Origin: a virus
IMG/VR virus record: IMGVR_UViG_3300049855_000146
Span: 1-21,869 of that record
Strand: one strand, 5' to 3'
DNA length: 21,869 nucleotides
Part shown: piece after piece, positions 2,572 to 16,690 of the stretch
Layout of the letters: each line of letters starts with the position of its first letter
Numbering within the stretch: position 1 is the stretch's first letter
Notes under the pieces: model-generated
Databases searched by the model: none
Seen by the model: the letters and a program-made list of their open reading frames with translations, nothing else
Told to the model about the DNA's origin: nothing
Program-made: the position numbers and the translations under genes

Positions 2572-3354
2572 ATGGCTCAATTCGCTAAGGGCGACACCTA
2601 CGTGCGCCTGTTGCCTGTTGGCGGAACCTTCGCTACCGGCACCCTTACGTTTGCCGGCAACGCAGTTGCCAACGAAACCGTCACCATCGGCGACCAGGTC
2701 TACACCTGGAAGGCGGCCCCGACCACCACGGCCAACGAGGTCAAGGTGGGCGCATCGGCCGCGGCCTCGGTCACCAACTTGGTTGCGGCGATCAACGCCA
2801 CGGCCGCCGACGCCGGTACCCTGTTCGGCTCGGCCACGGTCCAAAACGTGTACGTCTCTGCGGTTGATGGTACGGGCGACGTTGTCGACCTCACGGCGCG
2901 CAAGGCCTACGAGGGCCCGCTCGGTAACACGGTGGCGACCACCGAGACCATGACCAACGCATCGTTCGGTGCGACCAAGCTCACGGGTGGTGGTGCTACG
3001 AGCAGCGCTGCCCCGACCCTGACCACGGCGCCCAGCATCTATCTGCCGTTCGCCTGCGACGAAGCGCTGCTCATGATTCGGAACTGCGACAACATCGCCG
3101 GTACCACCAAGACCGCCGATCTCGCTCTCTGGGGCTGGTCCCCGACACAGGCGCGGTGGTTCTACATCGGCAAGCCGAACAACGGTACGGCCCTCGCTGA
3201 GGTTGCTTCCGACACCCTGTCCGAGAGCGAAACCCTGAACGGTCTGCGTCGGTTCTCGGGTCTGTACTGTCAGATTGTTTCCTTGGGCGGTGCTGGTACT
3301 GAGGTCGAGGTTGTGGTCGACTGCGTCAAGGCCAGCCCAGTTAGTGGTGGGTAA
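2572..3354 (+). CDS. Phage structural protein with VTIGxxxYTxK domain
   Basis: A 260 aa protein with no signal peptide or membrane segment. Residues about 20-140 carry a pattern I recognise from many phage virion proteins: a GTLTFAGN strand, then ETVTIGDQVYTWK, an NLVAAINA helix and an EGPLGNTVAT segment. This is usually a small alpha/beta decoration or adhesin domain. The C-terminal half is a separate beta-rich region with aromatic residues (LWGWSPTQARWFYIG) and several cysteines. The ATG at 2572 follows a good ribosome binding site. It lies between the large virion protein and fibre-like genes, so a role in the tail, neck or head surface is likely. The exact role cannot be told from sequence. 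Its stop overlaps the next start as TAATG. Confidence 0.65.
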   Translation: MAQFAKGDTYVRLLPVGGTFATGTLTFAGNAVANETVTIGDQVYTWKAAPTTTANEVKVGASAAASVTNLVAAINATAADAGTLFGSATVQNVYVSAVDGTGDVVDLTARKAYEGPLGNTVATTETMTNASFGATKLTGGGATSSAAPTLTTAPSIYLPFACDEALLMIRNCDNIAGTTKTADLALWGWSPTQARWFYIGKPNNGTALAEVASDTLSESETLNGLRRFSGLYCQIVSLGGAGTEVEVVVDCVKASPVSGG

Positions 3355-4566: not shown

Positions 4567-5442
4567 GTGGCTATCACGTCTGTCAGTCAGTTGGTCGGGG
4601 CGATTGCCAGGTGTCAGCGTGTCTTTTGCTACAAGACGCCAGCAACCAACGCCGATACAGCGTTTAGCGTGGCTCCGACACAGTTTGCGGGAGAGACCGC
4701 AGGTAACTTTCCAACAGGAACCACGCACAACGTGGCCTACACGGCGGGGTCCGGTTACACGCTAGACAAGTCGTCAGTAGGCGCCGCTGTCTACGCGAAC
4801 GCTACCACGCAGAACTACCTGGCTGGCGTGCTTGGTGTAGGGTACAGGCCGGGGAACGGAGCCAGCAATAGTGGTTGCCCTGTTGACGTCTACTTGGTGG
4901 ACCTTCTGTGGCAGTGCCGAGGAATGCTGTGCACCGCAGGTGGCGCGACCAGCACCGTAACGACCCCGGGCAGCCTTCCTGCACGTATCGCAGATAACGG
5001 GCTTGAGGCTGAAATATGGATGCACAAGGCTGCCGCTGACACGTCGATCGCAACCGGTACCAGCAGCTCATTGGTCGTTAACTACCTTGACGCCGACGGG
5101 GCTGCTCGGTCAACGGTCTCACTGACGTTCCCTAACACGACCACCATAGGTCAGTCTGACGTGTTCAGACTACCGCTAGCAAACAACCGCGGCGTGAAGC
5201 AGATTACCGCGGGTGTTTGGTCTAACTCGGCCAGCAGTTCCGGGACCTATACAATCATGGTTGTGCGCCCAATCACACGATTTGCCATGACGCCTGAGAT
5301 GTCCCAGGTGGGTTGGGCTGCGCTTGGACTACCGCGGATACACAACGATGCCTACATCACCGCGTTTCTTGACTCCAACACAGCACAGTCCGGGTCGTCG
5401 CTAAGCCGCGTGGCCTTTCAGTTACAGATAGTGGACCTGTAA
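4567..5442 (+). CDS. Putative virion protein, paralogue B of a tandem pair (GTG start)
   Basis: A 291 aa protein, a diverged copy of the preceding gene. It keeps GSGYT, ATTQNYLAG, LLWQCRGM, TVTTPGSLPARIADNGL and PLANNRGVKQ in the same order, and carries extra residues in its N-terminal third. I place the start at GTG 4567, two bases after the upstream TAG. An in-frame ATG at 4486 would overlap the upstream gene by 79 bases. The GTG start also gives an N-terminus (VAIT) matching paralogue A (MAIS). The pair probably arose by tandem duplication and may form hetero-oligomers or alternative surface proteins in the virion; that is inference. The C-terminal region (after about residue 230) is the most diverged. 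Confidence 0.6.
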   Translation: MAITSVSQLVGAIARCQRVFCYKTPATNADTAFSVAPTQFAGETAGNFPTGTTHNVAYTAGSGYTLDKSSVGAAVYANATTQNYLAGVLGVGYRPGNGASNSGCPVDVYLVDLLWQCRGMLCTAGGATSTVTTPGSLPARIADNGLEAEIWMHKAAADTSIATGTSSSLVVNYLDADGAARSTVSLTFPNTTTIGQSDVFRLPLANNRGVKQITAGVWSNSASSSGTYTIMVVRPITRFAMTPEMSQVGWAALGLPRIHNDAYITAFLDSNTAQSGSSLSRVAFQLQIVDL

Positions 5443-5445
5443 ACC

Positions 5446-5922
5446 GTGGCCTACCTCCCAGGCATATACAACGTAACCGGTAGTCGGAACCAGTCGGTCT
5501 CGGTGCTCAGTGGCGGTACGAGCACGACCGTCCAGACTGTTGGCAAGCGCCTGTTCTTCGGTCAGGTCGCGGTAGCAACTGCGGCGACTACGTTCGATGT
5601 GATGACCACAGCCGGCACCGCGAAGGTGTACGTGTCGTCGTCAAGCACACTGGTCTTCGATACAACCACATCCGCTGGTGCAGCACTGGTTGCTGTGCTC
5701 GCCACAGGCGCGGTTACGCTGCAAGCCATGACGTCGGCTGGCGCCGCCAACGTGTACGTGTCGGCCACAGGTACTGTGACTTTCGATGGCACGGTAGCGG
5801 CCGGTACGGCGCTAGTCACAAACACAGCCACTGGCTGGGGTGGGTTGCCGCCGCGCTACCTGCTCAACAAGGGGCTGCTCTCGCGCAAAGCCAGAACACT
5901 GGTCCCGCAGGGACGAAGGTAA
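5446..5922 (+). CDS. Small beta-repeat structural protein (GTG start)
   Basis: A 158 aa protein built from short beta-strand repeats. Residues 52-93 and 94-130 are two copies of a roughly 42-residue unit (MTTAGTAKVYVS...TLVFD and MTSAGAANVYVS...TVTFD), each of which looks like two half-units. Val, Thr, Ala and Gly alternate as expected for a small beta-solenoid or stacked-strand fold. The C-terminus is basic (LLSRKARTLVPQGRR), quite unlike the neutral repeat. The start is GTG three bases after the upstream TAA, with no strong Shine-Dalgarno motif, so reinitiation by ribosomes finishing the previous gene is likely. Context suggests a minor virion or fibre-attachment protein; I do not recognise a family. 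Confidence 0.55.
   Translation: MAYLPGIYNVTGSRNQSVSVLSGGTSTTVQTVGKRLFFGQVAVATAATTFDVMTTAGTAKVYVSSSSTLVFDTTTSAGAALVAVLATGAVTLQAMTSAGAANVYVSATGTVTFDGTVAAGTALVTNTATGWGGLPPRYLLNKGLLSRKARTLVPQGRR
5599..5835 (+). repeat. Two-copy 42-residue tandem repeat inside the small structural gene
   Basis: Codons 52-93 and 94-130 encode the same strand pattern (V/AMT-T/S-AG-A-VYVS, then FD, then AG-ALV, then ATG). The DNA shares the word GTGTACGTGTCG at the same phase, 126 bases apart. Synonymous positions have drifted, so this is an old duplication, not a recent slippage. Confidence 0.6.
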
Positions 5923-7537: not shown

Positions 7538-8323
7538 ATGGCTGTTGACATCTACCAGGAACTGCTTGCGCTCGGCGCCCGCCTCACCGCGGCTGAGGCC
7601 AAGGCTGCCGCCCTTGAAGCCCGGGTGCTCAAGCTTGAGACGCCGCCGCCAACCGGACTGAAACTAGCCGTTATCAGCTACTTCCGGTCCAGTACGCTGT
7701 GGGCCTCGACCCTGGCCGCCAAGCCGGCGTTCTGCTGTATCAACCCCGGCTCTGGCCCGGGCCCTTCGGCCGATAGCCTGTACGTCGCCCAGGTGCCCAA
7801 GAACAAGGCCGCTGGCGTACCCACACTGGGCTACGTCCACAGCAAGGGCGCTGGTGGTTACGGCACCCGGCCGCTGGCCGAGATCAAGGCTGACGTTCTG
7901 AACCACATCGCCTGGTACGGCGTTGACGGCATCTTCGTCGACACGGTCTCCACGGACCCGCTGTATGTCCCGTACTACGCCGACCTCTGCGCCTTCATCA
8001 AGAGCAAGGGCCTCAAGGTCTGCCTGAATCCGGGAACCAAGGGCCTCGAAGCCCACGCCCAGATGGCCGACTGGGTGATGTGTACCGAGACGTACGCCAC
8101 GACCTATCTGGCCGCAAGCCCGCGCCCTGCCTGGGAGAAGAACTACCCCGGCAAGATGCTCCACTGCGTGCACACGTGCACCGCGGCCCAGATGCCGGCC
8201 GTCGTGGCTAAGGCCAAGGCCGAAGGCGCAGGACTGGTCTACGTGACCGACGACGTGATGGCTAACCCATACGACACGCTGCCGGCCTACCTACCGGCGC
8301 TGCTGGATGAGATCAAGAAATGA
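7538..8323 (+). CDS. Spherulin-4 / GH135-like glycoside hydrolase-type protein with N-terminal coiled coil
   Basis: A 261 aa protein. Residues 1-36 are a short coiled coil (ALGARLTAAEAKAAALEARV), then a PPP linker. Residues 42-260 match the Spherulin-4 family, a TIM-barrel fold related to GH135 (Sph3): YF at 48-49, NPGSGPG at 69-75, GYV at 98-100, WYGVDGIFVD at 126-135, NPGT at 164-167, TETY near 183-186 and YVTDD at 235-239. GH135/GH166 relatives cleave galactosamine-containing polysaccharides. Asp130/Asp135 and Glu184 are candidate acidic active-site residues. No signal peptide. It lies after the tail fibre and its stop overlaps the XhlA-like gene as ATGA, so it could be a tail-borne depolymerase (coiled coil for trimerisation) or a lysis enzyme. 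The fold call is firm; substrate is unknown. Confidence 0.75.
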   Translation: MAVDIYQELLALGARLTAAEAKAAALEARVLKLETPPPTGLKLAVISYFRSSTLWASTLAAKPAFCCINPGSGPGPSADSLYVAQVPKNKAAGVPTLGYVHSKGAGGYGTRPLAEIKADVLNHIAWYGVDGIFVDTVSTDPLYVPYYADLCAFIKSKGLKVCLNPGTKGLEAHAQMADWVMCTETYATTYLAASPRPAWEKNYPGKMLHCVHTCTAAQMPAVVAKAKAEGAGLVYVTDDVMANPYDTLPAYLPALLDEIKK

Positions 8324-8532
8324 GCCGAGATGTGTTCCACAGGATTGGTGCCCTTGAGGTTAGTGCTACCCGCCATGACGCTCGACTAGAGGTCCTGGAG
8401 AAGGTGGCCGAAGACCACGAGGAGAGAATTCGTCCCCTGGAACACCTCCGCTCGCAGCTTACTGCACTCGCTTTCCTTGGCGCCGCCGTTGGTGCCGCAA
8501 TTGTCAACTACCTGTTTTCGAGGGTCCCCTAG
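8320..8532 (+). CDS. XhlA-like small membrane protein (holin-associated type)
   Basis: A 70 aa protein with a charged helical N-terminus (RIGALEVSATRHDARLEVLE, then EERIRPLEHL) of coiled-coil type. One C-terminal membrane helix follows at about residues 47-66 (LTALAFLGAAVGAAIVNYLF). That order and length match the haemolysin XhlA-type family encoded in phage lysis cassettes. It is coupled to the Spherulin-4 gene by an ATGA overlap and abuts the next small membrane gene with no spacer. A role in lysis, helping a holin or acting as one, is inferred. No cysteine lipobox is present, so it is not an outer-membrane spanin subunit. Confidence 0.55.
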   Translation: MSRDVFHRIGALEVSATRHDARLEVLEKVAEDHEERIRPLEHLRSQLTALAFLGAAVGAAIVNYLFSRVP

Positions 8533-8751
8533 ATGTTCGACTTCCTTTCTACCATCCCCCACGCCGCTGACGTCATGACCGGCATCGGTCTGCTTATCTC
8601 GGTCCTTACGGTTGTTTCGCCGCTGACCCGGTCGGACATCGACAACAAGGTCCTCGACTTCCTGCGCAAGATTGTCGCTATCGGCGGTACCGTCGTCGGC
8701 CACAAGGATCGCCCGGCGGGTAGCGTGCGCGACCATCGAGCCGCCAAGTAG
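8533..8751 (+). CDS. Putative holin: small single-span membrane protein
   Basis: A 72 aa protein. Residues about 11-30 (AADVMTGIGLLISVLTVVSP) form one hydrophobic helix. A segment SDIDNKVLDFLRKIVAI follows, then a basic hydrophilic tail rich in Arg and His. Similar short proteins with a membrane helix followed by D-NK-L-FL-K are often annotated as putative holins. The ATG directly follows the upstream TAG, and the TAG stop overlaps the GTG of the protease lipoprotein gene. Pairing with the XhlA-like gene supports a lysis role. The peptidoglycan hydrolase normally found with such genes is not adjacent; an M15 peptidase gene is on the opposite strand at 16307-16690. Confidence 0.5.
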   Translation: MFDFLSTIPHAADVMTGIGLLISVLTVVSPLTRSDIDNKVLDFLRKIVAIGGTVVGHKDRPAGSVRDHRAAK

Positions 8752-9362
8752 TGCGTCACCTGGTCCTGCTCGTTCTCCTGGCCGGCTGCACCGCTGCGCA
8801 GCACCCTCAGGTGGGGCCGCCTAACCCGGTCATGCACGCCATCGACAAGACGCACTTCATCCCGGACCCGGGGTGTACTGGCGTCATGGTGGCGCTGCGG
8901 ACTATGGTCACAGCCAAGCACTGTATGCCTGACGGCGCTGTCGTCGGTCAGCAGTACGACGTCGGCGGGGTCATCAAGTACATCAGCCCCAGGGAGGACT
9001 TTGCCGTGGTCTCGTACCCGGCGCCGCGCACCCTCGGGGACACCGATCTTATCGAGATGCGGCAGTCGCGGGTGGGGGAGCACATCTACGTGGTGGGCTT
9101 CCCTGTCCAGCTTGGCTCCGACAAGCAGGCCCTGACCGTCACCGACGGCATCGTGGCTGGCCCGATCAACGACGCTGGCGAGGTTCGCATCACGGCCCCG
9201 GTTTACTTCGGTAACAGCGGCGGCGGTGTGTGGGGTGACGACGGTGCTCTGATCGGCATCGCGGTCAACATCTACGCCTACAGCGGCACGGGCGGCTACC
9301 CGCTGCCCTACGTTGCGCAGGCGTTCATGGTCCCGGCCGAGAGCTTCATGGAGCACCTGTAG
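8751..9362 (+). CDS. Trypsin-like (S1 fold) serine protease lipoprotein (GTG start)
   Basis: A 203 aa protein starting MRHLVLLVLLAGC, a lipoprotein signal peptide with the lipobox Cys at 13. The mature part has a complete chymotrypsin-fold triad: His57 in TAKHC, Asp83 in REDFAVV, and Ser156 in GNSGGG. Cys42 and Cys58 flank the His strand as in the conserved disulphide of trypsin-like enzymes. The size fits one catalytic domain without PDZ or other extras. The product should be exported and lipid-anchored in the envelope of the infected cell. The GTG start overlaps the upstream TAG, and the stop overlaps the next GTG. Phage-encoded envelope proteases are uncommon; roles in lysis, receptor removal or defence against host factors are all possible and none is shown by the sequence. 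Confidence 0.8.
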   Translation: MRHLVLLVLLAGCTAAQHPQVGPPNPVMHAIDKTHFIPDPGCTGVMVALRTMVTAKHCMPDGAVVGQQYDVGGVIKYISPREDFAVVSYPAPRTLGDTDLIEMRQSRVGEHIYVVGFPVQLGSDKQALTVTDGIVAGPINDAGEVRITAPVYFGNSGGGVWGDDGALIGIAVNIYAYSGTGGYPLPYVAQAFMVPAESFMEHL

Positions 9363-10267
9363 TGGGCGGTAAGTACGACGACGCGCTCCGCAAGGCCTGG
9401 GGCGTCTACAAGAACGCCGATAACCAGACGGCGTACCGGGACAAGTACGAGAAGCTTGTAGACGAGACCGCGAACAACGACAGTATCACGCAGGACGAGT
9501 TCCAGCGCGGTGCGCCGCCTAACGTGGTCGGGCGTACGTTCACTAAGTACCCACCGCTGCCGCAGCCCCACTACGCGGACATTCCCAAGGCGTACCCCAA
9601 GGTGGCTATGCCGTTCGGTACCAGGGTCGATCCGTACGCTGGACAGGCTCCTGGGCCTAACCCGACGGCGCGAGCCTTCGTGCGCCCCGGCACGCCTGAG
9701 AGCACCGCCAAGCACGAGCAAGTCCACGTCGACACGAACACCCTGGGGCGTCCCACCGACAGGAACGCGGCCTGGTTCAACGAACTGAGCCCGGCTGAGC
9801 GCCTCCAGTTTAAGGTGGTCAAGGCTGTGTACGATCGTGAGAACAGCCACACGGCCCGCTTTGACGACGCGGGCGGCAGCGACATGACCACCGACAAGGG
9901 TCAGGCGCTAGCGAATCAGCGCAAAGAGCTGACGGCTGTGATGCAGGAGCTTGACCGGCGGCAGAAGGCGGCCGGCAAGGAGCTGTACCCCGAGGACCGC
10001 ACGAAGGTCACGGCGCTCCTCGACATGAACTCCCAGGCTATGCGCAGCCTGCCTGCGCCAGACTACGGCGACAAGCGGGCCAACGAGATCGCCGCCAAAC
10101 TGTTCAAGGCACGGGAAGGCCTTAAAATGCAACATGCCGCAGACCAAGCTGCGACGGCTCACGGCGGCAGGCCGATGAACACGTCGGAGATGATGCTGCG
10201 GCACATCGACAAGCTAGAGTCCGCCCTGGCTGGGGCGCTGTCGAAGGGCAAAAAGCCCCGCAAGTAG
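9362..10267 (+). CDS. Unknown protein with HExxH motif, possible metallopeptidase (GTG start)
   Basis: A 301 aa hydrophilic protein without signal peptide or membrane segment. Residues 118-122 are HEQVH, a zinc-peptidase-type HExxH in a TAKHEQVHVDT context, preceded by a Pro-rich region (residues about 60-115). The C-terminal half is helical and charged (RKELTAVMQELDRRQKAAGK; HIDKLESALAGALSKGKK). No metzincin HExxHxxGxxH extension is present and a third ligand cannot be assigned; Glu138 and Glu143 are only candidates. The motif may be chance, but its surroundings look like a real helix. It is the last gene of the late block, coupled to the protease lipoprotein by TAGTG. Its stop codon touches the stop of the methyltransferase gene on the other strand. 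Confidence 0.5.
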   Translation: MGGKYDDALRKAWGVYKNADNQTAYRDKYEKLVDETANNDSITQDEFQRGAPPNVVGRTFTKYPPLPQPHYADIPKAYPKVAMPFGTRVDPYAGQAPGPNPTARAFVRPGTPESTAKHEQVHVDTNTLGRPTDRNAAWFNELSPAERLQFKVVKAVYDRENSHTARFDDAGGSDMTTDKGQALANQRKELTAVMQELDRRQKAAGKELYPEDRTKVTALLDMNSQAMRSLPAPDYGDKRANEIAAKLFKAREGLKMQHAADQAATAHGGRPMNTSEMMLRHIDKLESALAGALSKGKKPRK

Positions 10268-10792
10268 TTACCCGCCCATAGGTTGCCACAGGTTACTTGT
10301 GGCACCGAGGTGCATCCGCACCGACGCCGTGTTCTCTGGGTTCAGCACCAGGAGCACGGCGTTCGCTTGTGTGGGGCTTTTACCTTTCAGGCCAGTCACC
10401 GGGTCCAGGAACCGAATGCGCTTCCTGGGGACAGCCAGGACGACCTCCTTGCCGGGGAAGGCCCATTCCGACGGCTCGATGCCGCGGGCCTGCTCCAGGC
10501 TAAAGGCAAGGTAGAACAACTGGGCAGCCCGGCCCTCGTTGAACTCGGCGTGGGCCTTGAGTAGGAACTTACGCCACAGGCCGCCGGGAGGGTTCAGGAA
10601 CAAGTTGCCGGACCAAGGCTGCTCCAGTCCGTTGTCGGAGGCGTAGTACGGCTGGCGCGCGCAGATACGCGCCTGGGCCACCATGTCGGTAGCCGGGTCG
10701 GTGTCGATGGAGCCCATGATCTTGCGGGCAGCTTCGACCCACTCGACCGGGGTGTGCCACGACGGGTTCTCGGCGGAGTGCAGAATGTTCAC
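10268..10792 (-). CDS. Phage-type DNA N6-adenine methyltransferase (Dam family)
   Basis: A 174 aa protein of the phage Dam family (PF05869 type). It has the WHTPVEWVEAARKI start, a DTDPATD segment near residue 30, an ARQPYYASDNGLEQPW segment, and the catalytic motif FLNPPGG at residues 65-71, corresponding to the (D/N)PP(Y/F/W) motif IV of adenine methyltransferases. A late IRFLDPVTGLKGKSP segment is also typical. It should transfer methyl groups from S-adenosylmethionine to adenine in DNA, perhaps protecting phage DNA from restriction; the target site is unknown. Gly replaces the usual aromatic residue after NPP, which is worth noting for activity. The start is GTG at 10792 in a GTGA overlap with the upstream gene. 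It is the last gene of the early operon. Confidence 0.75.
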   Translation of the reverse strand: MNILHSAENPSWHTPVEWVEAARKIMGSIDTDPATDMVAQARICARQPYYASDNGLEQPWSGNLFLNPPGGLWRKFLLKAHAEFNEGRAAQLFYLAFSLEQARGIEPSEWAFPGKEVVLAVPRKRIRFLDPVTGLKGKSPTQANAVLLVLNPENTASVRMHLGATSNLWQPMGG

Positions 10793-11217
10793 TTACTTAC
10801 CCCCAGACCGTAGTAGATGCCGTCAGAGTTAACCCAGCGCTGCGTCAGGGTGCCGGTGTCGTGGACCTCGATACCGTGGTTGCGGCTAGGGTCGAATACA
10901 ATCAGGCTGTTACCGCAGCGGCCGATGGCGGTAACCCAGTGCTCGTCATCGTCAACGCACAAGATCGTAGGCCACCCTAGGGTCATGGATGCACGTACCC
11001 ACTCGATGCTGTTGGTGAGGTTAGTGCTCTGCCACTCGTCAACGCGCACGCCGTTGGCCAGGAGCGCGCGTTTCATCTCGGTCTCATTGGTACCTGCGTC
11101 CTCGTTGACGTCACACAGTTTGGCGATCTCACGCTGGGTACGCCTGATACCAAGCACCTCAAGGGCGTTAGCAATGCTAGCAATTCCGCACCAGTAGCCC
11201 TTGCGCTGGTGCCTCAC
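10789..11217 (-). CDS. C39-like cysteine peptidase domain protein (GTG start)
   Basis: A 142 aa protein. With the GTG start at 11217 (GTGA overlap with the upstream stop) it begins VRHQRKGYWCGIASIANALE, which resembles the active-site helix of C39-like peptidases. Cys10 is the predicted nucleophile with Gln4 at the oxyanion-hole position. His93 lies in DDEHWVTAIG and Asp109 in LIVFDPSR, completing a Cys-His-Asp set in the order and spacing of the C39/papain-like fold. There is no signal peptide and no ABC-transporter domain, unlike bacteriocin-processing C39 enzymes, so it is probably a stand-alone cytosolic peptidase or related hydrolase. A longer form starting at 11271 would overlap the upstream gene by 58 bases and is less likely. 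Substrate unknown. Confidence 0.65.
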   Translation of the reverse strand: MRHQRKGYWCGIASIANALEVLGIRRTQREIAKLCDVNEDAGTNETEMKRALLANGVRVDEWQSTNLTNSIEWVRASMTLGWPTILCVDDDEHWVTAIGRCGNSLIVFDPSRNHGIEVHDTGTLTQRWVNSDGIYYGLGVSK

Positions 11218-11510
11218 GTCTTCACCCGAAGCATGCCGCCGCAGGTACCGAGGGCGTACGTCATGCGGCACGTAGCCCCGTCGGCCACGTCGTTGACGTC
11301 ATACATACCGGGCGTACCGCAGGCCTGACACGCGTAGAGCTGGTGCACCGGGGAGCCCGGGTTCGTGGGCTCGTCGAACCAGAAGTCGAACTCGTCATCC
11401 TGGTTGGCAGGCTCGGTCTTGGACCGCAGCGGCTGCTTGTCACACTTAGGGCAAAGTGAAAACTGCCCAATGATGGGCAGCAACACCGACGAGCATGTCT
11501 TACAGGTCAT
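11214..11510 (-). CDS. Small double zinc-ribbon protein
   Basis: A 98 aa protein with eight cysteines in two four-cysteine sets. The first is C3xxC6 and C20xxC23 (MTCKTC; LCPKC). The second is C61xxC64 (ACQAC), C81 and C90. The segment between them is acidic (NQDDEFDFWFDE). This is the pattern of two small zinc ribbons, probably for nucleic acid or protein binding. The ATG at 11510 sits in an ATGA overlap with the upstream stop, and the stop sits in a GTGA overlap with the C39-like gene. An upstream extension of the frame to 11609 would overlap the membrane protein gene by about 100 bases and is rejected. The specific function is unknown. Confidence 0.6.
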   Translation of the reverse strand: MTCKTCSSVLLPIIGQFSLCPKCDKQPLRSKTEPANQDDEFDFWFDEPTNPGSPVHQLYACQACGTPGMYDVNDVADGATCRMTYALGTCGGMLRVKT

Positions 11511-11731
11511 CGCCTCATACCAACGAGAGTACCCACAAACAACCCTCCCAGATAAGCAGGAGCAGTCCAGGTATCGCCCACAACACCAGTGAGGCCAACA
11601 AGGCTGCAAGCACCGATGAACACGCTAGCCAGAGCAGCTCGAAGCGGCTCAGCGTCACGGACGTGGAGCATCCAGCGACAGTACCCGACGTCGAGCAGGA
11701 AGGCTGCAAGGAAGACGAGGACATAGTTCAC
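11507..11731 (-). CDS. Small multi-span membrane protein (GTG start)
   Basis: A 74 aa very hydrophobic protein. Likely membrane helices are at residues about 2-16 (NYVLVFLAAFLLDVG), 32-50 (ALASVFIGACSLVGLTGVV) and 57-72 (APAYLGGLFVGTLVG), separated by a basic loop (CRWMLHVRDAEPLR). The GTG at 11731 is in a GTGA overlap with the lipoprotein stop. That start was chosen over an ATG at 11770 and earlier ones because it fits the junction pattern of the operon and removes a longer overlap. It could be a holin-like, superinfection-exclusion or membrane-modifying protein; no family is recognised. Its neighbours are a lipoprotein upstream and a zinc-ribbon protein downstream. Confidence 0.5.
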   Translation of the reverse strand: MNYVLVFLAAFLLDVGYCRWMLHVRDAEPLRAALASVFIGACSLVGLTGVVGDTWTAPAYLGGLFVGTLVGMRR

Positions 11732-12081
11732 TTCGGCGTCTCTGGTCGGATCTCGAAGATACCGGAGCATTCTGGCGGCGTGACACCGTAGAACCCGAGC
11801 AGGAAGCAAGCCTGGTTCTCCAGACCCTGGAGGGCCGCGTCACAGGCGTCGAGGGCGTCCTGGGCGGCGGCCTCGTTGACCTCGATCTCGCACGTGGCCT
11901 GCGCGTCACACATGTGCCACTTGTTGTGCTCAACGCAGCGTTCCTCGCGTTCCGGAGCCAGTGCGCCACAGGCCACGAGGCCCGAGCAGTACGACTCTGA
12001 GAACGCCTGGGCGGTGTCGCCCCACGTGTACGGGTGCTCAGCGCACCCAAGCAGCAGCAGAAGCGGCAGTGCCTTAAACAT
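11728..12081 (-). CDS. Cysteine-rich exported lipoprotein
   Basis: A 117 aa protein starting MFKALPLLLLLGCAEHPY, a short but clear lipoprotein signal with lipobox Cys13. The mature part has eight more cysteines (32, 38, 49, 58, 64, 80, 92, 105), an even number that suggests four disulphides and an extracytoplasmic location. Acidic residues and helical segments lie between them. The ATG at 12081 overlaps the end of the nucleotide pyrophosphohydrolase gene by eight bases; the open frame extends upstream to 12309 but the signal peptide fixes the start. Phage lipoproteins in non-lysis positions are often superinfection-exclusion factors; that role is a guess here. Cys-rich lipoproteins of this general look are also frequent in Myxococcota genomes, which may hint at the host. 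Confidence 0.6.
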   Translation of the reverse strand: MFKALPLLLLLGCAEHPYTWGDTAQAFSESYCSGLVACGALAPEREERCVEHNKWHMCDAQATCEIEVNEAAAQDALDACDAALQGLENQACFLLGFYGVTPPECSGIFEIRPETPK

Positions 12082-12370: not shown

Positions 12371-12921
12371 CCTGGCACCACCCTGAAGATCGCACGCAGG
12401 CGGATTTCGTACTCTCGGCTAGTAGCAAGCCGCGTGGCGATGTTGCCGTCGGACTGAACCACGTGAAGTATGTCGGCGCCCAGTGTCAGGAGTCGTCCAT
12501 CGGACCAGCTCCTGGAGTCGACCACCGCGCGCACAGTCTGGTTGACGGCCTCGGCCAGTTCCAGTCCTGCGTGGTTGATGGCCATCCAAACCTCGGGTCC
12601 GCTCATTTCGTCGGGCAGCGTCAGGGGCCTGTACAGCTTGTTCGAGTAAGCCAGTGTGTGATACCCAGAGACAGGGTCGAGAAAATTCGTACAGGTACCC
12701 CAGGCCCCGACTTGCGTGGGGTAGTTGATCTCGGCGGCACAGACCTTGAGGATGCTTGCGATCTCACCGGCCGACGGGATCGGCAGGGTCGGCGGGGTCC
12801 ACTCCAGCGTCAGCCGCTCTGGCGCTGCCGCAGCCTTCGACTCGCCACCGCAGCTCTTGCAGGTCCAGAAGTTACCGATCACGCACTCAGCATCGAGATG
12901 TCCACAGGGTGCTTTGCTCAT
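12367..12921 (-). CDS. Unknown protein with N-terminal zinc-ribbon motif
   Basis: A 184 aa protein. The N-terminus has a likely zinc site: C6-G-H8, C13 and C21xxC24 (PCGHLDAEC ... WTCKSCGG). A Pro-rich linker follows (around residues 44-52). The rest (about 55-184) is a mixed alpha/beta region with no motif I recognise; it includes NFLDPVSGYHTLAYSNKLY and a helical segment ELAEAVNQTVRAVV. The ATG at 12921 is in an ATGA overlap with the polymerase stop, so it is translated together with the polymerase, and the stop is in an ATGA overlap with the pyrophosphohydrolase. Function is unknown; its position between polymerase and nucleotide hydrolase suggests a link to replication. Confidence 0.5.
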   Translation of the reverse strand: MSKAPCGHLDAECVIGNFWTCKSCGGESKAAAAPERLTLEWTPPTLPIPSAGEIASILKVCAAEINYPTQVGAWGTCTNFLDPVSGYHTLAYSNKLYRPLTLPDEMSGPEVWMAINHAGLELAEAVNQTVRAVVDSRSWSDGRLLTLGADILHVVQSDGNIATRLATSREYEIRLRAIFRVVPG

Positions 12922-14936
12922 TTCTTCGCCTTCGCCCACGAGGGGCCGTAGCCTGCCTCAACGATCAGGGGGACCTTCAGTAGCCCCGGCCTGAGAGGAT
13001 TACACATCGTCTTGGTCACGATGTCCAGTGTTACTTGCTCAAGGCCCTGCCGGCACTCAACCACCATCTCATCGTGAACTTCGAGCACGATGCTGACGAG
13101 CTTGTCGAGCTTGCCTCGGGCCGCCGTCATCACGTCGGTGGCAGATCCTTGGATGGGGGTGTTGTAGGCTTGTCGCTCGGCGCCGGCCCTGAGTCCACGG
13201 TCTTTGGAATAGATGTTAGGAAGCGGCCGGAAGCGTCCCAGTAGCGTGTGAACGCCTCCGTGCTCCCTGGCGTAGTCGGCCATGAATACTTGAAAACGAG
13301 GGACCCCCGGGAAAGCGGAATCAATTCGCTCAACAATGGCGCGGGTTTCATCGACGGACTTCTTTAGTTGGAGTGCCATGCCCATGAGGCCCTTACCGTA
13401 CGCCTTAGCCAGGAGAACGATCTTAGCCTCGCCACGAAGCTTGTCGGCCTTGATCGCGTCTAGGGTCCAGCCCCGGAACTTGTCGGGCCAGCATTCGAGG
13501 GCGATACCGGAGTAGACGTCGCCGAAGTTGATGGCGTCGAGCAGCGACGTGTCGTTGAACAGAGTAACCAGGAAATGCGCCTGTAGACGAGGTTCAAGGG
13601 CACCATAGTCTGCCACCACCAGACTGTGCCCAGGAGCAGCAACAAAAGCAGACCGCAGACCATAGGTGTCGTCCTTTGGGATGTTCTGAAGGTTCGGCTT
13701 AGACGAACTTAGCCGACCCGTGCGGGTATCGGGCTTGAGGATACTGTGGATGCGCCCGAACGTGTCCTGGAACGTAGGCAGCCGGTCAAGGAACTGGATC
13801 AGGTCGGTGAGCTTGCGCTCCTTGAGGATGTGCTCGATGCCGGGCTCAAGGTGCTGAATGGCGATGTGCTGGAGGGCGGCCTCGGACGTCGAGGGCTTAC
13901 GCTCGCGGTTAGCCTTGATAGCCTTGACGGTGCCCATGACCGGCGGGACGTCGTAGAAACGCTCCTGGTAGAGCACCTGGGCCAGCTGTGCCGGGCTGTC
14001 GAGGTTGACCTCGTGGCCGACCCACTCGATGGCCGCAGCGTGTGCTACTTGCCGTTCTTGCTCGGCGGCAGTGCGTCCAGCCGCAGCGATGCCGGCGTCG
14101 TACTGGATTCCTCTCCGCTCGATTCCGTGGAGGACGCCAAGACTGGGGTGCCAGAAGTCTCGATAAAGATCCCAGAGTGTACCCCAGAGACGGGCCTGAC
14201 CAAGACCACGCCAGGGAGCCTCCCGTAGTCGTCGCTGCAACAGAAAGAATAGTTCGAGAGAGCCTTTTGCATCGAGACCAGCATACTCATACAGTACGGG
14301 CAGCAGCTGCGGGTAATCTTCTCTGATTCTGTCGAGGGGGATGAGGTCTCGGGCGGCACCCACCCGGCTGGCGGGCCCTCCCACAACGGTCGGTACGCGG
14401 GCCTGGTCGTCGACCTTTCGCCACGTATCCCGCGGTGCTCCCAGGTCTTCGGTAGCACCCGGTTTCCGCCGGCTGAATAGTTCGGTGTACTCGCCGACGC
14501 CGTAGTCGAAAGCTCGCCTGATCCAGGACTTAAGGCTGTTGTCGTGGGAGTCGACGTCGAGGAGCTTAGCCATTCTGAGCGAGTCGCCAACAATCCCGCC
14601 CAGGTCAATGCCGTGGTTGCGAAACATGTGGCGGTCAAAGCCAACAACATTGTGTCCGACGACAGGGGCGCTCCTGAGCCAATCAGCGAACACGTCCAAA
14701 CTGTCAGCCCAAAGGAAAGCACTGCGAGCAACAGGGGTACCGCGCTCCGGATGAAGCCCCAGCGCCGGGTCGACCCACCCGATGGACCAACACACAATCT
14801 TGCCTTTGCCAACGGGCGACTCCTCGGTAGGGTCAACGCCAACGGTCTCGCAGTCGAGGCCGTACGGGCCCTCGGTGTTCTCTTGCAGCCACGCCAGGAA
14901 GGCCGCTGCATCTGTAACGACGAGCGGCTTCTCCAC
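12918..14936 (-). CDS. Family A DNA polymerase with 3'-5' exonuclease domain (GTG start)
   Basis: A 672 aa replicative polymerase. The proofreading domain has Exo I Asp28/Glu30 (LDCET), Exo II around Asp101 (GHNVVGFD) and Exo III Y218xxxD222. The polymerase domain has TGRLSSSKPNLQNIP (407-421), motif A at 440-455 with Asp443 and Glu448, motif B Arg501/Lys505/Tyr513-Gly514, and motif C VHDE (620-623). Thus exonuclease and polymerase residues are complete; no 5'-3' exonuclease domain is present, as usual for phage PolA. Two oddities: motif A reads DYGALEPR, with Pro where DYSxxELR has Leu, and the residue equivalent to E. coli Phe762 is Leu509. The GTG start lies two bases after the upstream TAG (TAG-CC-GTG). 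It probably copies the phage genome with the helicase and ssDNA-binding protein of this operon. Confidence 0.93.
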   Translation of the reverse strand: MEKPLVVTDAAAFLAWLQENTEGPYGLDCETVGVDPTEESPVGKGKIVCWSIGWVDPALGLHPERGTPVARSAFLWADSLDVFADWLRSAPVVGHNVVGFDRHMFRNHGIDLGGIVGDSLRMAKLLDVDSHDNSLKSWIRRAFDYGVGEYTELFSRRKPGATEDLGAPRDTWRKVDDQARVPTVVGGPASRVGAARDLIPLDRIREDYPQLLPVLYEYAGLDAKGSLELFFLLQRRLREAPWRGLGQARLWGTLWDLYRDFWHPSLGVLHGIERRGIQYDAGIAAAGRTAAEQERQVAHAAAIEWVGHEVNLDSPAQLAQVLYQERFYDVPPVMGTVKAIKANRERKPSTSEAALQHIAIQHLEPGIEHILKERKLTDLIQFLDRLPTFQDTFGRIHSILKPDTRTGRLSSSKPNLQNIPKDDTYGLRSAFVAAPGHSLVVADYGALEPRLQAHFLVTLFNDTSLLDAINFGDVYSGIALECWPDKFRGWTLDAIKADKLRGEAKIVLLAKAYGKGLMGMALQLKKSVDETRAIVERIDSAFPGVPRFQVFMADYAREHGGVHTLLGRFRPLPNIYSKDRGLRAGAERQAYNTPIQGSATDVMTAARGKLDKLVSIVLEVHDEMVVECRQGLEQVTLDIVTKTMCNPLRPGLLKVPLIVEAGYGPSWAKAKK

Positions 14937-15318: not shown

Positions 15319-15562
15319 CAATGGCCTGCTCAGCGAGGGCTTCCAGCTTCTCCAGGGCCACCATGTCGCGGCCCCTGTACCACTCCACCAACTCTTCCTT
15401 GGTAAGCTCAAGGGTGTAGAACTTCCGGCTGTAGTCCTTACCGTGCTTTGCGTGGTAGGTGGTCAGGTAGTCTAGCGCCCTATCCCGGGAGTCGTGTGCA
15501 GTAATCACCACGCCGTTGTCCACCACACAGAACTTGCCATTGATGCCTTCGACTCTAGCCAT
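15308..15562 (-). CDS. Small hypothetical protein
   Basis: An 84 aa soluble, charged protein. The N-terminal part is predicted beta (GKFCVVDNGVVITAHDSRD), followed by helices (ALDYLTTYHAKHG; KEELVEWYRGRDMVALEKLE) and an acidic end (QAIDED). I do not recognise a family. The ATG at 15562 overlaps the metallophosphoesterase stop by eight bases, so it is coupled to that gene. Conservation of reading frame without a gap on either side supports it as real. It may be a small regulator or a host-takeover protein, but nothing in the sequence decides this. Confidence 0.5.
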   Translation of the reverse strand: MARVEGINGKFCVVDNGVVITAHDSRDRALDYLTTYHAKHGKDYSRKFYTLELTKEELVEWYRGRDMVALEKLEALAEQAIDED

Positions 15563-16310
15563 ACTTTTTCCTCAGCCAATCAAGGGTTACCTCGGTAAGG
15601 GCGAAGTTTCCGCCCTTTACTTCGTGTAACGAAAGCACACCCCGCCAGTAGCGAACGCCTTGAGGGCTAAGGTAGGCCTCCTGGTGCAGGTAGCAAGAAC
15701 CAGCGATGACTCCCCGGATGGTTCGGCTTCCGGTGCAATGAATATGCACGTCGAGACCCTGCTTGTGCCCGGCGACAGTGCTTCGCATCTCACGGAGTAC
15801 CTGAGCCCTGGCAGATGGTGCGCCCCGCTTAGTCTGAGAGATGTTGCCATCGCCGCTCCTTGGGAAGTAGTGACAGAACGTTACGCCCTCGATCGTGATC
15901 GTTTCAAGGAACGGAACAACCTCCCACCCCAGGGCCCTGTCGTTGAACTGGTGGTAGCCGACGGCTCCTTCGAGTTCTGGGTGGTCTTCCGTGTAGCGTT
16001 CAAGGCGCTGTTCATGGTTTCCACGAAGGATGACCAGACGCGGAGAGTAGCCTCGAAGGCGTCTAAATGGTGCGCAGAGCCGTTGCAGTCCGGCGTTACC
16101 TGCCTCAATATCTCGAATGACCCGTCGGCCTTCAGCTGAAGCTTTGCCTTTGTCGTAGCTTGACAGCGAAGGCATGTCCCAGTGGTCTCCCAAGTGGACA
16201 ACAACGTCGGGTCGCTTTGCTGCCACATACTTACCGATCCATTCTAGGTGGTCCGTGCGGACGCCTGGCTTTACCTGGGTGTCGGGAATGACAAGGATGC
16301 GTTTACTCAT
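15555..16310 (-). CDS. Calcineurin-like metallophosphoesterase
   Basis: A 251 aa protein with the metallophosphoesterase motif set in order: Asp10 (VIPDTQ), HLGDHWD at 39-45 (Asp42), LRGNHEQR at 95-102 and an AGHKQG segment towards the C-terminus. The first motif reads D-x-Q, where the family usually has D-x-H, which may alter metal binding. A PGVRTDHLEWIGKYVAAKRP region follows motif I, as in related phage proteins. Substrate is unknown; phage members can act on phosphomonoesters, cyclic nucleotides or nucleic acid ends. I chose ATG 16310 (MSKRIL), in an ATGA overlap with the endolysin stop, over an ATG nine bases earlier. It is one of several phosphohydrolase-type genes in this operon. Confidence 0.75.
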   Translation of the reverse strand: MSKRILVIPDTQVKPGVRTDHLEWIGKYVAAKRPDVVVHLGDHWDMPSLSSYDKGKASAEGRRVIRDIEAGNAGLQRLCAPFRRLRGYSPRLVILRGNHEQRLERYTEDHPELEGAVGYHQFNDRALGWEVVPFLETITIEGVTFCHYFPRSGDGNISQTKRGAPSARAQVLREMRSTVAGHKQGLDVHIHCTGSRTIRGVIAGSCYLHQEAYLSPQGVRYWRGVLSLHEVKGGNFALTEVTLDWLRKKYG

Positions 16311-16690
16311 CCCTGCCACCGCGCGGGAACAGCCCGGATGTCATAGTGCGTGAAGTTCTTGTAGCTACCAAGCCCACCGTTGTGGATTTTGTGCTCACGG
16401 ACCAGCGCCTCGATCAGGCCACGCAGGGACTTGGGGGTTACCCCGGCAACCACGATATCCGCGGCCATGCCCTTCATGTGGAACGAATTCTTCGCCCCAC
16501 CGATCTTCTTGTTGTAGGCCGGCGACCTGTACCCGCTGAGGATGGCGACGGGGCGCTTGTATTCGGCTCGAATCACCTCAAGTTCACAACAGAGTTGCAC
16601 GACGTTCTCGTAGTACTTCTTCGGCACCGGAGTACCGTCGTGGCACCTGAACTCGTCCAGGCGAAAATGGTCCGTGATCCAAGTAATCAT
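16307..16690 (-). CDS. Endolysin: M15-type zinc peptidase (L-Ala-D-Glu or D-Ala-D-Ala type)
   Basis: A 127 aa single-domain protein of the Peptidase M15 (VanY/M15A-like) group. Residues 48-59 (VAILSGYRSPAY) precede the zinc motif with His71 (NSFHMKGMAADI) and Asp78. The third ligand is His115 in FTHYDIR, followed by Arg and Trp near the end (RAVPARW). All expected catalytic and metal ligands are present and no cell-wall-binding domain is attached. Such small phage enzymes cleave peptidoglycan stem peptides and serve as endolysins. It has no signal peptide, so it would need a holin, and holin-like genes lie at 8320-8751 on the opposite strand. Its place in the early, replication-type operon is unusual. 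The ATG is in an ATGA overlap. Confidence 0.8.
   Translation of the reverse strand: MITWITDHFRLDEFRCHDGTPVPKKYYENVVQLCCELEVIRAEYKRPVAILSGYRSPAYNKKIGGAKNSFHMKGMAADIVVAGVTPKSLRGLIEALVREHKIHNGGLGSYKNFTHYDIRAVPARWQG

Follow-up and report, generated by a model that had tools for sequence, protein, structure and literature searches.

Known C39 peptidases belong to bacteriocin exporters or form domains of phage lysins, and an active site with a Gln/Cys/His/Asp layout is typical of the family. The closest described counterparts of the protein considered here are the bacteriocin-processing domains of ComA and PCAT1 (PF03412), single-domain proteins of the Peptidase_C39_2 (PF13529) and DUF3335 (PF11814) families, and PeiR together with the C39 domains of phage lysins. 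Here, we analysed a window of 21,869 bases, which is one whole IMG/VR virus record, and describe in it a single-domain, C39-like cysteine peptidase of 142 residues with a GTG start (10789-11217, minus strand; referred to as C39), identified by Pfam, AlphaFold2 and Foldseek. C39 resembles ComA and PCAT1 in fold (Z 17-18, rmsd about 2 Å) and in its Gln/Cys/His/Asp layout but differs from them in being viral, in sharing only 19% identity, in carrying the signature VDxxEHWV and in having no ABC transporter, either fused to it or among the scanned proteins of the window. The profiles of PF13529 and DUF3335 are matched by phage C39 members, which differ from those single-domain proteins in that they are phage-borne, shorter and without an ATP-grasp neighbour. 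PeiR and the lysin domains have the same fold, whereas C39 of the window lacks a wall-binding domain, its gene lies outside a lysis cassette, and its relatives include a fusion to a portal-like protein. A literature search found nothing on a phage C39 family of this kind.

The replication operon and its last five genes

Genes in the left part of the window, up to position 10267, are on the plus strand, and the right part is a replication operon on the minus strand that runs from 21864 down to 10268. The operon encodes a family A DNA polymerase (12918-14936, minus strand; phrog_17, 4.3e-87) and a metallophosphoesterase (15555-16319, minus strand; phrog_221, 6.8e-58), the latter given here as the longest ORF, with a start at 16307 used in some analyses. 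An M15_3 endolysin-like peptidase (16307-16690, minus strand) also lies inside the operon. Away from it, in the plus-strand block, a gene for a trypsin-like protease with the lipobox LLAGC (8751-9362, plus strand) follows two small transmembrane (TM) genes (8320-8751), and the three may form a lysis cassette; a similar lipoprotein protease is present in the C39-bearing record G005 (E 0.003; L125, 5897-6529, minus strand). The same block contains a Spherulin4-family protein (PF12138, 1.8e-30; 7538-8323, plus strand).

The last genes of the operon are five accessory genes on the minus strand, from 12081 to 10268. They encode a lipoprotein of 117 residues (LIPO; 11728-12081, minus strand), recognised by its lipobox LLGC, Cys count and codon usage; a protein of 74 residues with a GTG start and about three hydrophobic segments (MEM; 11507-11731, minus strand), supported by codon usage and a weak similarity to three-TM proteins; a double zinc-ribbon-like protein of 98 residues with eight Cys in four pairs (ZR; 11214-11510, minus strand); C39; and a protein of 174 residues with a GTG start that resembles phage N6-adenine methyltransferases by phrog_111, tblastn and alignment (MTase; 10268-10792, minus strand). 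All five have coding-like codon usage (0.11 to 0.23 per codon), and even MEM, the lowest, scores far above its alternative frame (-0.24) and the antisense ORF (0.01). The preliminary description had placed five genes with GTGA/ATGA overlaps at the end of the operon and had read them as lipoprotein, membrane protein, double ribbon, transporter-free C39 peptidase and methyltransferase; both the arrangement and the gene-by-gene reading are borne out by our analysis.

Each junction from LIPO through MEM, ZR and C39 to MTase is a 4-base overlap (GTGA or ATGA), and LIPO overlaps its own upstream gene by 8 bases. Because most other junctions of the replication operon also overlap, these overlaps do not mark the five genes as a special unit, and overlapping genes in a compact operon should more generally not be taken as evidence of a functional unit.

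Fold, active site and possible substrates of the C39-like peptidase

C39 scores above the cut-offs of both Peptidase_C39_2 (PF13529; 32.3 bits, cut-off 24, 1.8e-7) and Peptidase_C39 (PF03412; 25.7 bits, cut-off 22, 1.1e-5). Its active site Q4/C10/H93/D109 (Met1 counted) is intact, and in the alignment the corresponding Q3, C9, H92 and D108 (numbered without Met1) are the same in each of the eight rows, with the Gln six residues before the Cys; VDxxEHWV and RW are likewise invariant in the eight rows. An AlphaFold2 model computed from an alignment of eight real sequences (pLDDT 92.3, pTM 0.89) has as its top solved structure the ComA peptidase domain 3k8u (Foldseek E 1.6e-7, Z 18.3, 128 aligned, rmsd 2.1), tied as closest structure with the pseudomurein endoisopeptidase PeiR (Z 18.2). 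The predicted fold and the invariant Gln, Cys, His and Asp together make it very likely that C39 is an active cysteine hydrolase.

The single C39 domain fills all 142 residues of the protein, which contains no signal peptide and no wall-binding or second catalytic domain, although one of the latter two is common, if not universal, in phage endolysins of the C39 type. Together with the missing transporter and the position of its relatives in replication and head modules, these features point to a cytosolic peptidase. We therefore favour, with roughly even confidence, a model in which the five genes are an accessory tail of the replication operon and the central one encodes a cytosolic C39 peptidase directed against a host or phage protein. 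In this model, C39, a single domain with the predicted double-glycine (C39) peptidase fold, would use Cys10, His93 and Asp109 for catalysis, with Gln4 as the putative oxyanion-hole residue. It would cut cytosolic proteins of the host or the phage behind small residues, at either peptide or isopeptide bonds, most likely in the service of host takeover or counter-defence. Should its targets be host proteins, C39 would make a small and easily assayed candidate for either. MTase ends in PMGG and the product of gp2572 (2572-3354, plus strand) in VSGG, which places Gly-Gly termini beside a peptidase of double-glycine type; as candidate substrates these two C-termini prove nothing and are possibly a matter of chance.

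What counts against this model is that PeiR and phage lysins share the fold and that the link to ATP-grasp ligases described below is found only in distant bacterial proteins. C39 could instead contribute to an extra lysis function, as a second endolysin or peptidoglycan peptidase acting with MEM as a holin-like protein, LIPO as a spanin-like outer-membrane lipoprotein and the M15 endolysin-like protein (16307-16690) encoded in the same operon. Consistent with such a role, phage lysins with C39 domains are among the structural matches of the C39 model (BFVD), C39 has a weak PHROG endolysin match (4e-5) besides its similarity to PeiR, and viral endolysins with C39_2 domains have been described (PMC5017753). 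However, C39 has neither a wall-binding domain nor a signal, its relatives either form part of a portal-like fusion or are encoded among head or replication genes, and two small TM proteins and the lipoprotein protease at 8320-9362 form a separate candidate lysis cassette, so that we regard a role in lysis as fairly unlikely.

Relatives of the peptidase in viruses and bacteria

The C39 subfamily defined by the VDxxEHWV signature occurs in seven virus lineages, the window included, and on one bacterial contig from a genome scan. The six further virus lineages were found by scans of viral_contigs with loosened motifs; two alignments, A2 and A4, included invented or altered rows that served to loosen the search patterns, and later inferences use real rows only (A3, A5). 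Single-protein 8-mer scans of viral_contigs with C39, LIPO and ZR did not lead to usable loci, and tblastn of C39 against isolate phages and plasmids returned nothing. All seven members scanned match PF13529 and PF03412, and four of them also match DUF3335. The C39 tree gives the window no firmer placement than a weak grouping with L087 (83/91).

The genomic setting of the gene varies among these lineages. At L108, in record G010, the order is DnaB, DUF3310, metallophosphoesterase, a 65-aa gene, C39, a SLOG-like gene and DNA polymerase, which is a replication operon as in the window. At L104, the gene before C39 is metallophosphoesterase-like and matches a family of phage exonucleases. At L106, it lies upstream of the small and large terminase and the portal genes; at L105, downstream of MuF and a scaffold-like gene; and at L103, antisense to the head operon, between the MuF and DUF2213 genes. 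At L092, L093 and L094, C39 forms the C-terminal part of an ORF of roughly 690 residues, the N-terminal part of which is putatively portal-like, judging by its sequence and by its position, the next ORF being S78-like/capsid. The subfamily is best read as mobile and carried by several unrelated, uncultured phages in different places, and the occurrence of a free-standing phage C39 in replication and head modules, and once within a portal-like protein, suggests that the protease is used inside the cell or virion.

These settings also raise the question of whether C39 is a virion-assembly peptidase that processes, for example, portal, scaffold or internal proteins, as might be expected from the portal-like fusion at L092-L094, from C39 following MuF/scaffold-like genes at L105 and from its place beside DUF2213 at L103 and before terminase and portal at L106. 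Yet in the window and in G010 the gene is in the replication operon, outside the head module; at L103 it is antisense to the head operon in a phage that already has DUF2213; and in the phage with the portal-like fusion, the capsid protein already comes with an S78-like protease stretch. A virion-assembly role for C39 appears distinctly unlikely to us.

Returning to a peptidase that acts on cytosolic proteins, a hint as to the bond that might be cut comes from distant bacterial C39-like relatives, most of which have about 290 residues, score 76-101 bits and carry a C-terminal extension. At nine of eleven such loci (L127-L134 and L136), the C39-like gene is head-to-head with a gene for an ATP-grasp ligase; these pairs come from genomes that belong to the same phylum as a Melioribacteraceae MAG. 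This neighbourhood suggests that peptide bonds made by ligases can be substrates of the wider C39-like family. In a similar vein, a review (PMC10318531) notes fusions of DUF3335 proteins with GNAT domains that are possible peptide ligases. No ATP-grasp ligase of the kind seen in the bacterial pairs is present in the eight virus records searched. As one example of host takeover or counter-defence, the phage C39 might remove peptide tags similar to those that may be added by the ATP-grasp ligases beside its distant bacterial relatives. A more elaborate version, in which C39 and the three-TM protein, joined in some phages by a lipoprotein, form a module that strips host ATP-grasp-type peptide tags or cleaves a membrane-linked defence protein, is in our view a long shot.

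Neighbours of the peptidase and their linkage

The preliminary description had proposed that LIPO, MEM, ZR and C39 form one functional unit spanning envelope to cytosol, for example for superinfection exclusion or counter-defence. The genes are indeed contiguous and translationally coupled, and a weakly similar three-TM protein lies near C39 at L103 and L104; the overlaps, however, are operon-wide, and the co-occurrence search that the description had called for speaks largely against the idea. In whole-record searches of ten C39-bearing IMG/VR records, all of them fragments, we found no homologue for any of the three proteins ZR, LIPO and MTase. Among kin of the window, the phage most readily recognised as such is G010, which has in common with it the polymerase (6.4e-32), the best link between the two, as well as DUF3310, the metallophosphoesterase, DnaB and a homologue of the window's 800-aa protein gp154 (154-2556; 1.3e-18), and it has C39 in its replication operon; LIPO, MEM, ZR and MTase were not found in the G010 record, also a fragment. 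As every virus record compared is a fragment, these absences weigh little. The metallophosphoesterase, a landmark common to the window and L108, was rejected as a general marker of kinship, as the 80 loci fetched through it share few other genes. PADLOC gave no family at E<=1 for any of the five proteins, and none of the libraries scanned (Pfam, PHROGs, PADLOC and the TIGR01712 set) names a system with this set of genes, in line with the earlier remark that no described system of this kind is known. We therefore consider a single four-gene system very unlikely; the best reading is that LIPO, MEM, ZR and MTase were each acquired separately and serve functions of their own, unrelated to C39.

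Of these neighbours, MEM comes closest to a recurring partner. It has weak PHROG matches only, and tblastn against isolate phages gave hits at E about 3 only, but the records of L103 and L104 each encode one three-TM protein weakly similar to MEM, in both cases near C39. The seeds for this comparison were first chosen by eye from C39 neighbourhoods; the pairwise E-values are 0.0017-0.019, and a two-sequence profile reaches E 0.0036 among 10,952 ORFs. In a control, the best inter-locus match was 0.001 to 0.02 for 13 of 150 hydrophobic ORFs. Because other hydrophobic ORFs reach such values by chance, we treat the similarity as suggestive only; as a sequence resemblance, it hints that C39 may in some cases be accompanied by another gene, with a possible three-TM partner in two other lineages.

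LIPO has a short signal, the lipobox LLGC at Cys13 and eight further Cys in its mature part (nine in all), a pattern that may resemble that of lipoproteins of Myxococcota. It had no match in Pfam, PHROGs or PADLOC and none by tblastn to isolate phages at E<=1, and its single-sequence structure is poor (pLDDT 54.8) and was left uninterpreted. At L104, a different, unrelated lipoprotein is coupled to C39 through an ATGA overlap, an arrangement that could be counted in favour of a unit. However, this record encodes other lipoproteins as well. The L104 contig, a virus contig of 105 kb, carries a collagen-like repeat lipoprotein and a further lipoprotein (567-1400 and 5309-5791, both minus strand). 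In ZR, the Cys pairs are 3/6, 20/23, 61/64 and 81/90; its zinc-ribbon matches in Pfam are all sub-threshold, and tblastn against isolate phages returned nothing.

The last gene of the operon had been called a Dam methylase. The similarity of MTase to phage N6A-methyltransferases stands (phrog_111, 7.5e-16), and the label 'Dam' proved loose: MTase has no Pfam match, and its score against TIGR01712 is 32.4 bits, below the cut-off of 97. By tblastn, MTase matches Dam-like genes of Vibrio phages (9e-15, about 34% identity), and its likeness to phage N-6-adenine methyltransferases (phrog_111, TIGR01712) amounts to about 31-34% identity along most of the protein, with DxDPA and NPP motifs. Its motif IV, however, reads NPPG, unlike the pattern [DNS]PP[YFW] and the NPPY of the relatives read. 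If the NPPG motif is active, the role of MTase is probably DNA modification.
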